DNA from: Planctomycetales bacterium
Lineage (GTDB): Bacteria; 4484-113
DNA: 64,000 nt
Assembly: GCA_030606285.1 (NCBI GenBank)
Contig: JAUWGS010000001.1
Span: 62,001 to 126,000, forward strand
Reading direction: 5' to 3'
Every line of letters starts with the position of its first letter. Position 1 is the stretch's first letter. The notes beneath the pieces were generated by a model. That model worked only from the letters and a program-made list of their open reading frames with translations. It was not told the origin of the DNA and made no database searches. The translations under genes were made by a program, and so were the position numbers. Shown here piece by piece: positions 50,540 through 56,632 of this stretch.

Positions 50540-52849
50540 ATGATTGATAAAGTAATAAGAATCAAGAACGTTGGCTGCTTCAATGACTACGGTGCATTCG
50601 GTGACGTTTCGTTCAGGGGCGTCAATATCATCTTTGGCGAGAACGCTAAGGGCAAGACAACTCTTTCCGCAATCCTGCGTTCGTTGCAGACGGGTGATGC
50701 GAACCATATCGCCGAACGCCGCACGCTAGGTTCTGATAACGAGCAGTCCGTGGAGCTTCGAGTGAGCGATTCCACGAAACGGTATAGCGACGGTTCATGG
50801 AATGAGACAGTGCCGGAGATTGTCGTATTCGACCCTACATTTATTGAAGACAACGTTTATTCAGGTGCGTTCATTAAGCATGAGCACAAGAAGAACCTGT
50901 ACAACGTGGTCGTCGGCAAACAGGCGGTTGAGCTGGCGAAGGGCATTGAGCGAATAGATTCAGACGTGAGGCGCTTAAACGAACAGATGCGTGATACTTC
51001 GGAGCGAATCCGGGAGCTGGGCATAGGTGCCATGGATGTTGACACTTTCGTGACGCTCCCTGAAGTGGCAGACGTGGATAACCGCATTAGGCTTGCGGCG
51101 CAGACCGTGGCCACTCTAGAAAAGGCTCAAGACATTGCAGTGAAGGGTGAGTTATCAATAATACCAATGATTCCTTTCCCCGAAGCTGAATTAGCGGAGG
51201 TTCTCGGAAGAACACTGGAGGATCTTTCCGCTGATGCCGTCTTGAAGATAAGGCAACACATTCACCAATGCATGGATAATCAAGGTGAGGCTTGGATTAG
51301 CCATGGTATGAAGTACATCAAGGATGAACGATGCCCATTTTGCACGCAACTGCTTACAGGAATCGAGCTAGTCGATGCTTACCGAGGCTTCTTCGGTAGT
51401 TCGTACCGCGCGTTGAAATCACAAACAGATGGCTTGCACAGTAGGGTCAGCGAGGATATGTCCGACCGTGCTTTAATGAGAGTTCAGGGAGTCATTGAGA
51501 ACAATCGCGCCCTCGTGACCTTCTGGCGCGAGTTCGTGGAGGTCCAGTACCCGGAACTATCCTTCAAAGATATTCAGGGGCCGTGTCAAGCCCTAAGAGA
51601 ATGCTTGGATAGACTGCTGTCTAAGAAAAGAGAGTCTCCCTTGGAAAAGATTAAGCTTCACGATTCGATCTTGCCTTTGAGAAATAAATTCCAAGAGGTG
51701 ATGACGGCAGTTATTGCCTACAATGATCTACTGGGAAGCGTGAATAGCGCCATTGGAAAAAAGAAGGCGGAGGCTAAGACCGGCGATTTGAGACTGGCCA
51801 TGAAGAACCTAGGACAATTCAAGCTGGCAAGACTGCGGCATCAGGAGAAGCCGGCACAGAGATCGAAACAGTATATAAAGCTTCAACGTGAGAAGACGCA
51901 GCTTGAAATGGCAAAAGAGGAAGCTAAAGAGAGTTTGGACGACCTTACTGAAACGCTCTTTGAGACTTACCAGAAGACGATAAACGCTTATCTCAGCCGG
52001 TTTGGCGCAACCTTCTCCATCAGTGGTCTACGGAGAACGTACATAGGGGGGACCCCTAATGCCGGCTTTGCCCTAGTGATCAACAGCACAGAAGTGGATG
52101 TGAGTGACCCGGACACTCCGCCGGGAGAGGCCTGTTTCAGAAACACGCTTAGCTCTGGTGACAAGTCTACTCTCGCCTTCGCTTTCTTCTTGGCGAAACT
52201 CGACCAAGAGAGTGAATTGGAGAAGAAGATAATCGTCTTTGATGACCCGGTTTCCAGCCTAGACCATCACCGCAAGACCTGCACTGCACAGCAGATACTC
52301 TCCTACATCGACAAAGCCACTCAGATTGTGGTGATGTCACACGATTTGCAGTTCATTAAGGCGTTCTGGGATGGTTGCGACCAATCACGTGTGAAGGCCC
52401 TCGAGATCATCAGGGCCGAACGTGGTAGTGAAATCGTCGAATGGGACATCGAAGAGGCGCTGCAAGAGGATTACTACAGGAACTGCTTGTCCCTGTATGA
52501 TTACCTGGAGAAGGGCGCCGAAGGCAATGACTTGAGCGATATTGCTAGGCTTGGTAGGCCCATACTTGAGGGGAATCTTAGGAGACGTTTCCCTCGTCGC
52601 TTCCGACCAAGGGAGCAGATCGGGCAATTCATGCGGGAAATAGAAGCCGCGCAACAGGGAGATGAATTGTTCACCCTTAAGGGCGATTTCCTTAGTGAGT
52701 TGGATGCGCTAAACGAGTACTTCAGCAAGTATCATCACGACGAGGCCGGTGCGCTCTCCATTGAGGAACCCAATGATACCGAGTTGAGAGCGTATGTCCG
52801 GCGTCTGCTAGACTTCATCAAGGGCCTCCCAATCCAAGGTGCCTCCTGA
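50540..52849 (+). CDS. AAA_13-family SMC-like ATPase with internal CXXC
   Basis: A 769-residue ABC/SMC-type ATPase: Walker A GENAKGKTT (33-41), a long central coiled-coil region interrupted by C265-P-F-C268, a signature LSSGDKSTLAFAF, Walker B IIVFDD (ending 569) followed by PVSSLDHH, and the H-loop MSHD. This is the PrrC/RloC-like superfamily, whose members include anticodon nucleases and zinc-hook proteins. I cannot identify the anticodon-nuclease triad, so the activity is unassigned. The gene looks less G+C-rich than its neighbours, consistent with a transferred defence gene. TAGAAT at 50518-50523 may be its -10 box. Confidence 0.82.
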   Translation: MIDKVIRIKNVGCFNDYGAFGDVSFRGVNIIFGENAKGKTTLSAILRSLQTGDANHIAERRTLGSDNEQSVELRVSDSTKRYSDGSWNETVPEIVVFDPTFIEDNVYSGAFIKHEHKKNLYNVVVGKQAVELAKGIERIDSDVRRLNEQMRDTSERIRELGIGAMDVDTFVTLPEVADVDNRIRLAAQTVATLEKAQDIAVKGELSIIPMIPFPEAELAEVLGRTLEDLSADAVLKIRQHIHQCMDNQGEAWISHGMKYIKDERCPFCTQLLTGIELVDAYRGFFGSSYRALKSQTDGLHSRVSEDMSDRALMRVQGVIENNRALVTFWREFVEVQYPELSFKDIQGPCQALRECLDRLLSKKRESPLEKIKLHDSILPLRNKFQEVMTAVIAYNDLLGSVNSAIGKKKAEAKTGDLRLAMKNLGQFKLARLRHQEKPAQRSKQYIKLQREKTQLEMAKEEAKESLDDLTETLFETYQKTINAYLSRFGATFSISGLRRTYIGGTPNAGFALVINSTEVDVSDPDTPPGEACFRNTLSSGDKSTLAFAFFLAKLDQESELEKKIIVFDDPVSSLDHHRKTCTAQQILSYIDKATQIVVMSHDLQFIKAFWDGCDQSRVKALEIIRAERGSEIVEWDIEEALQEDYYRNCLSLYDYLEKGAEGNDLSDIARLGRPILEGNLRRRFPRRFRPREQIGQFMREIEAAQQGDELFTLKGDFLSELDALNEYFSKYHHDEAGALSIEEPNDTELRAYVRRLLDFIKGLPIQGAS

Positions 52850-55402: not shown

Positions 55403-56470
55403 TTACCGCATCTCGGCGGCTTTGCCAAAGGCCTGCCAGAAAGGATCCACGCGGGGGTGTTTGAGAACAGTCTTTTTGCCCTCAATGAAGACGTTCATAC
55501 CTTCTTCCTTTGGCACGACTTCACCAACTATGGAGGTTAGGATGCCTTTATCATTCAGGCGTTTCTCTACCTCCTGGGCCTTGTGCGGGCGGACCGTGGC
55601 GATCAGCGTTCCCTCGCTGATGGAGGAGTAGGGGTCAATGCCGAAGAGGTCACAGACTTTTGCGATGACCGGTTGCAGGATGATGTCCTCCTTGTGGATT
55701 ACCATCCCCACCACTGATGCTTCGGCGACTTCGAAGAGCCCACCCCAGACACCACATTCGGTCGCATCGTGCATGGCTGTAACACCTTCGTCGCGCACTC
55801 CGACCTCCACTGCGGTCAGCGCGTCCTCGACAACACTCATCTGCCAGAAGACCTCTTCAGCCTCCCGCGCCGTCTTCTCACCGTAGGCCTCGGCAACACG
55901 CTGCGGATAGGTGCATGCGAAAAGGCCTGCTGCCTCGACAGCAGCTCCCTTGGTGATGATGATGCGGTCGCCGACGCGCGCCATTGCCGGCGTAATGTAT
56001 TTATCCGCAGACCCGATGCAAATGACGGTGGCTCCACCGACCATCGGATACTCGCAGCCTTCGTATCTGCCCGTGTGGCCGGACACAATCGCCATGCCCA
56101 TCTTCTCGCTCTCGCGGTGGATTACGCCCCACATTGTCTCCAGCTCGTCGCGAGTGATACTCATAGGGAGATTGAGGTCGATAGTCATGTAGGTTGGCGG
56201 CAGGCCCGAGGTCACTGCATCACTGGCGAGAATGTGCACAGCGAACCATGCGCTGCGCTCCCAACCGTACGGTGGCACGATGAACACAGGATCGGTCGTT
56301 GTGATCATCACCTGGCCTTGGCCCAGATCGCAGACGCCGATGTCAATCCCGTGCTGCGGTCCTACAAGCACAGTACTGCGCTTGCGGCCGAGCTGTGGAA
56401 GGATAATCTCGTTGAAGATCTCCGGCGAGACTTTTCCGATGGGCGGAAGTTCGGATTTGGCGTTTCCCAT
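55403..56470 (-). CDS. AIR-synthase/HypE/ThiL-superfamily protein under TPP riboswitch control
   Basis: A 355-residue PurM-fold ATP-binding enzyme. The N-terminal half has the dimer-forming strand region GIDIGVCDLGQGQVMITTTDPVF, analogous to the DDA-type motif of ThiL and HypE. A helix follows (AVHILASDAVTSGLPP), then VSGHTGRYEG (the SGxT/GDT-like motif) and, in the second half, MHDATECGVWGGLFEVAEAS and SISEGTLIATV. It is not a canonical ThiL: motif residues differ and it is longer. The upstream TPP riboswitch implies a role in thiamine supply, for example as a phosphate kinase in synthesis or salvage. CAGGGAG lies 6 nt before the ATG. Confidence 0.85.
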   Translation of the reverse strand: MGNAKSELPPIGKVSPEIFNEIILPQLGRKRSTVLVGPQHGIDIGVCDLGQGQVMITTTDPVFIVPPYGWERSAWFAVHILASDAVTSGLPPTYMTIDLNLPMSITRDELETMWGVIHRESEKMGMAIVSGHTGRYEGCEYPMVGGATVICIGSADKYITPAMARVGDRIIITKGAAVEAAGLFACTYPQRVAEAYGEKTAREAEEVFWQMSVVEDALTAVEVGVRDEGVTAMHDATECGVWGGLFEVAEASVVGMVIHKEDIILQPVIAKVCDLFGIDPYSSISEGTLIATVRPHKAQEVEKRLNDKGILTSIVGEVVPKEEGMNVFIEGKKTVLKHPRVDPFWQAFGKAAEMR

Positions 56471-56535
56471 TACACACTCCCTGATACTGATTTGCCAGCG
56501 CCGGGGAACTCTGGGAACTTGCCCTTGCAGGAAGC

Positions 56536-56632
56536 CGTTTTCCTACGCCGGTATTGCCCGGTTCAGGTTCAAAGGGTCTACCCGCCAGCGGCGGGCAAAG
56601 CTCTCAGCCCCGTTCAGGAGCTCCCCTAACGA
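56536..56632 (-). promoter_or_regulatory. TPP (THI-box) riboswitch
   Basis: The minus strand reads TTAGGGGAGC...GGGGCTGAGAG, a variable P3 stem (GCCCGCC/GGCGGG), then GACCCTTTGAACCTGAACC, CCGGGCAATACCGG and GCGTAGGAAAA. These are all the conserved THI-box blocks in order. The 3' edge (GTAGGAA) can pair with TTCCTGC (56527-56533), and the overlapping CTTCCTG (56528-56534) can instead pair with the ribosome-binding site CAGGGAG (56477-56483). That layout gives a translational switch. No T-run terminator is seen. Confidence 0.93.

Follow-up and report, generated by a model that had tools for sequence, protein, structure and literature searches.

The window, a 64,000-nucleotide stretch of a Planctomycetales genome (the home genome), carries on its minus strand a gene for a 355-residue protein, hereafter X (55403..56470, ATG start), preceded by a TPP riboswitch aptamer (THI box, RF00059; 56523..56637, minus strand). 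X is composed of an AIRS and an AIRS_C domain, both above the Pfam cut-offs, and has no other Pfam domain. It is proposed below as a candidate thiazole-supply enzyme. The preliminary description, drawn over 55403-56632, took in the whole reading frame but only most of the aptamer, which extends to 56637. Elsewhere in the window (50540-52849, plus strand) lies a gene for a 769-residue AAA/SMC-like ATPase that matches the PADLOC candidate PDC-S06 with 270 bits and may serve in anti-phage defence.

The TPP aptamer at 56637-56523 (minus strand) is full-length and real. It scores 67.4 bits in cmscan (gathering score 54.3; E 4.4e-11) and aligns with all 105 positions of the model (1-105/105), confirming the riboswitch that had been read from the letters alone. 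RF00059 is the sole Rfam family above threshold in the window. Across the 2.3-Mb home assembly this aptamer is the one TPP riboswitch detected, and X is the only TPP-controlled gene found. The aptamer is connected to the ATG of X by a leader of 52 nt (56471..56522, minus strand), the presumed expression platform, which contains a putative ribosome-binding site, AGGGAG, ahead of the ATG (56477..56482, minus strand). A terminator search found no intrinsic-terminator-like hairpin in this leader, and the leader folds no better than shuffled sequences. The leaders of three X orthologues (L010, L016, and L017) contain GC-rich hairpins, with a clear T run after the hairpin in L010; these hairpins are consistent with terminators. 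In another orthologue (L013:5915-6011), the predicted ATG of X falls within the 3' strand of its aptamer, an arrangement suggestive of direct translational control.

X matches no curated equivalog. Its best NCBIfam score is to HypE (TIGR02124, 80 bits; cut-off 251.6) and its second best to ThiL (TIGR01379, 67.6 bits; cut-off 184.15). The SelD cut-off is missed as well (TIGR00476, 50.8 bits; cut-off 125), and PurM is not among the NCBIfam families listed. The earlier assignment of X to the PurM-fold ATP-binding proteins, outside the canonical thiamine genes, was thus right at family level. In a tree with ThiL, HypE, SelD, and PurM, the families named beforehand for this comparison, all 13 X proteins group in a single clade of their own (support 100/100). 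The clade is sister to HypE (86/91) on long branches, and this placement is provisional; two filler rows, which were ill chosen, sit on very long branches outside the X clade. The AlphaFold model of X has a pLDDT of 91 when built from a mixed alignment with HypE, ThiL, SelD, and PurM rows, and of 63 when built from close homologues alone. The fold of the model is PurM-like and best superimposes on HypE (Z 35.4), followed by SelD (29.2), ThiL (28.7), and PurM (24.3). Both Pfam domains and the predicted fold place X in the PurM/AIRS superfamily.

Residues D43, D60, D84, and D235 of X are invariant and lie at the aligned superfamily motifs. An aromatic set (W70, W75, Y136, Y141, W209, and W242) is invariant as well, and could stack on a heterocycle. 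Also invariant are C139, C239, and C273, and E286, which is part of a SEGT motif and aligns with the glutamate of the HypE NEGK motif. At the sites of the ThiL motifs GDDAA, GGDT, DVSDG, and DYELLF, X has GIDIG, SGHTG, HDATECG, and SEGTL, respectively. The C-terminus of X reads ...FGKAAEMR, and that of HypE from the same genome ...PRIC. One X orthologue (L010:1436-2548) carries an in-frame tandem duplication of ~17 residues (VEVGVREDGVTAMHDA), either natural or an assembly error.

HypE being the nearest relative, X might be an ordinary HypE, SelD, or PurM paralogue to which the riboswitch is incidental. We regard this as hardly credible. In the home genome, PurM, SelD, and HypE each have a gene of their own that passes its cut-off, and a further gene, of 778 residues with two AIRS_C matches, reads as PurL by its size. 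X lacks both the C-terminal cysteine of HypE and the lysine of its GDTK motif, and thiamine operons that include X recur in several phyla. Misannotation of a HypE, SelD, PurM, or PurL gene as X is rejected, as the first three are separately present and a PurL-sized gene is present too. With ThiL present in addition to these, X is therefore an extra member of the superfamily.

To retrieve relatives of X, bacterial and archaeal genomes were scanned, yielding 12 contigs with 61-93% identity. They are labelled Acidobacteriota, Myxococcota/Deltaproteobacteria, KSB1, Zixibacteria, Eisenbacteria, Planctomycetales (G001, of the home family), and others, and X is a distinct family in at least six bacterial lineages. 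Seven of the 12 contigs carry, immediately ahead of the X orthologue, a TPP aptamer that passes the gathering score, so the pairing of riboswitch and X is not due to chance. Four other orthologues with upstream DNA have no TPP riboswitch even at E 5, and one further contig is cut. Counting the window, X is preceded by the riboswitch in 8/13 X genomes. We found no earlier report of this gene-riboswitch pair in open-licence papers.

X lies among thiamine genes in several lineages. In L017 the riboswitch is followed by X-TenA-ThiE-ThiL-ThiD, the four partners all being above NCBIfam cut-offs; G012 and G013 have X-TenA-ThiE-ThiL; and in G011 one contig has riboswitch-X-ThiE and another ThiE-ThiL-ThiD. 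X very probably belongs to the thiamine pathway. The preliminary description had inferred a new ATP-dependent step in TPP synthesis or salvage, and that part of it is well supported by the riboswitches, the distinct clade, and the thiamine operons.

Its more specific proposal, that X is an alternative thiamine-phosphate kinase replacing ThiL, has to be abandoned. The shared fold of the predicted model and the TPP control are in its favour, but a canonical ThiL (221.5 bits; cut-off 184) is encoded on the same contig as X, 16 kb away. ThiL is above the cut-off in 11 of the 13 X genomes, a twelfth being cut by a contig end, and is co-operonic with X in several; only in G019 was no ThiL found. In addition, X scores far below the ThiL cut-off and does not keep the ThiL motifs. 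Replacement of ThiL is very improbable and is rejected. As X sits in thiamine operons with ThiL, it therefore acts beside ThiL and not in its stead. Of the two observations that had been named as contrary to the proposal, ThiL in the same genome and riboswitch-less orthologues in relatives, the former was made, whereas in other lineages the riboswitch is retained ahead of X (8/13 genomes). The ThiL reading frame of G017 (L180:7372-8622), followed by ThiD, has an N-terminal extension of ~100 residues that reads like thioredoxin and has no Pfam match; it may reflect a fusion or a misplaced start.

In three genomes (G012, G013, and G018), TenA is the gene immediately after X. This arrangement, along with the TPP control of X, would fit a role for X and TenA together on another thiamine-related compound, in the repair or salvage of a breakdown product. 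The same reading does not account for G011, in which no TenA lies between X and ThiE, for the several genomes in which X is a single gene, or for the missing thiazole enzymes described below, and we consider it unlikely, though worth keeping in mind.

The home genome encodes ThiC, a ThiE fused to ThiD2 (L193:6165-7229), and ThiL, yet family searches detect no ThiG, Thi4, or ThiM in this MAG, which is 91% complete. Two relatives likewise have ThiC, ThiE, and ThiL and are without ThiG, Thi4, and ThiM. Weak ThiG matches in these genomes are PdxS by sequence, and weak Thi4 matches are other flavoproteins. The home genome thus covers the pyrimidine branch, the coupling step, and the last kinase, which leaves the supply of thiazole as its single gap. 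The gene just upstream of the ThiD2-ThiE fusion reads as a shikimate dehydrogenase.

We compare thiamine genes across 20 genomes, most of them incomplete MAGs: the 13 with X and seven from the home phylum that have no X. ThiG, Thi4, and ThiM are all missing from each of the eight genomes in which X is under riboswitch control. Among the five X genomes without the riboswitch or without upstream DNA, three have ThiG (G012 and G013) or Thi4 (G020); the association of ThiG/Thi4 absence with a riboswitch on X has a probability of 10/286 = 0.035 when kinship is ignored. The X-less members of the home phylum all have ThiG (7/7) and all are without ThiC (7/7). X and ThiG are nearly mutually exclusive (Fisher test, 0.0005 overall and 0.008 within the phylum, kinship ignored, the home-phylum census being small at 10 genomes). 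ThiM is found in none of the 20 genomes, the control search being positive in E. coli and others. In the X-less relatives that were read, the riboswitch precedes a PF02133-type transporter, confirmed in one (L070:10254-11753) and similar by sequence in the others. Sodium:solute symporters follow a TPP riboswitch in G019 (L067:5699-7141) and G018 (L068:4166-8062), the latter with a TonB receptor as well. These riboswitch-linked transporters are probably for uptake of HMP or thiamine.

X sits where the known thiazole enzymes are missing, which argues for a role in thiazole supply; on balance, we slightly favour the view that X acts in the thiazole branch. In the proposed mechanism, binding of TPP to the predicted riboswitch would switch off X, an enzyme devoted to thiamine metabolism. 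X would supply the thiazole moiety (HET-P) to ThiE where ThiG, Thi4, and ThiM are missing, ThiE would couple it to HMP-PP, and ThiL would then make TPP. X itself may be a homodimeric ATP enzyme of the HypE/ThiL type whose substrate for phosphorylation is a salvaged thiazole alcohol (HET or carboxy-HET); it would then be a non-orthologous counterpart of ThiM. This assignment as a ThiM analogue with a fold like that of HypE is the least certain part and is made tentatively. A HET or carboxy-HET kinase needs only ATP and could fit in an active site of the ThiL/HypE type. The near-exclusion of X and ThiG, the thiamine operons, their resemblance to the salvage operon of Staphylococcus aureus, and the invariant aspartates and aromatics are consistent with thiazole supply. 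Against it stand the co-occurrence of X with ThiG or Thi4 in three genomes and the presence of X in G014, G017, and G019, in which neither ThiE nor ThiN is matched. HET-P would be useless in these genomes unless the assembly has missed the gene or another enzyme stands in for it; ThiN was considered as the substitute, and none was found. No thiazole transporter was identified, which counts against salvage.

The unusually strong conservation of X also speaks against a simple salvage kinase. The mean identity of X between genomes is ~70%, compared with 42% for ThiE, and in the same genome pairs X has 72% vs 38% for ThiL and 71% vs 57% for ThiC, figures to be read with a retrieval method that favours close homologues. 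X might instead be a new de novo thiazole synthase, or part of one, in which ATP-driven activation of a carbonyl or amide builds or closes the ring, replacing ThiG or Thi4. HypE, to which X is closest in sequence, tree, and fold, uses ATP to activate an amide oxygen. We know of no precedent for thiazole-forming chemistry of the PurM/HypE type, which counts against a synthase. Conservation exceeding even that of ThiC, the invariant E286 and cysteines, and a home genome that keeps ThiC and ThiD2-ThiE with no thiazole enzyme found would all suit a synthase. ThiD2 is reported to accept HMP-P but not HMP (PMC12345177), an indication of de novo synthesis rather than salvage in the home genome. This de novo style and the strong conservation of X keep a new thiazole-forming activity alive. 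In contrast, X occurs alongside ThiG and Thi4, has tenA, a salvage gene, as its neighbour in three operons, and is kept where ThiC is missing and where ThiE is missing. We therefore judge a synthase unlikely, and a third thiazole route, independent of ThiG and Thi4 and catalysed by X on a PurM/HypE fold across several phyla, slightly less likely. ATP-dependent thiazole salvage is the likeliest reading, ahead of a new thiazole-forming enzyme.

The genomes without ThiE and ThiN, speaking as they do against a thiazole kinase and a synthase alike, argue for a third assignment unless they reflect assembly gaps: X as a thiamine kinase that converts salvaged thiamine to TMP and so feeds ThiL. It would explain G014 and G017, in which ThiL is present, and would suit G018 and G019, in which the second riboswitch with its symporter probably serves the import of thiamine or one of its precursors. 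A thiamine kinase would leave ThiC and ThiD2-ThiE of the home family stranded without thiazole and does not explain the near mutual exclusion of X and ThiG, and is rather improbable.

Annotation would class bacteria that have ThiC, ThiE, and ThiL and none of the known thiazole genes as thiazole auxotrophs. Should X supply HET-P, such predictions fail in several phyla that are little cultured, and the PurM superfamily gains a further function. The riboswitch and the operons single out one gene for an old gap in the pathway, which is now directly testable.

The closest neighbour of X by sequence, tree, and fold is HypE (TIGR02124; PDB 3wjp and 2z1e), with which it shares the PurM-type two-domain ATP fold. 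HypE carries its carbamoyl group on a C-terminal cysteine, whereas X has none. HypE GDTK corresponds to GHTG in X, in which the lysine is gone, and HypE NEGK to SEGT. X also differs from HypE in its thiamine genomic context, and its genome encodes a true HypE besides. ThiL (TIGR01379; PDB 3c9t) belongs to the same superfamily and pathway as X and often to the same operon. However, the first aspartate of the ThiL DD motif is I42 in X, the DVSDGL and GEDYEL motifs are missing, and a separate ThiL is also present. SelD and PurM are superfamily members as well, and the GHT motif of X resembles SelD GGHS, but X is under the SelD cut-off and both proteins are separately encoded in the home genome. 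ThiM, the hydroxyethylthiazole kinase (PF02110), is like X in proposed role and operon position. The two families are unrelated and X lacks a PF02110 domain, which bears on family membership only and not on role. ThiM is needed by Ostreococcus for the use of carboxy-HET (PMC5899164). In Staphylococcus aureus, the salvage operon is TenA-ThiD-ThiM-ThiE (PMC2766623); the X operons resemble it in layout, with X in the place of ThiM.
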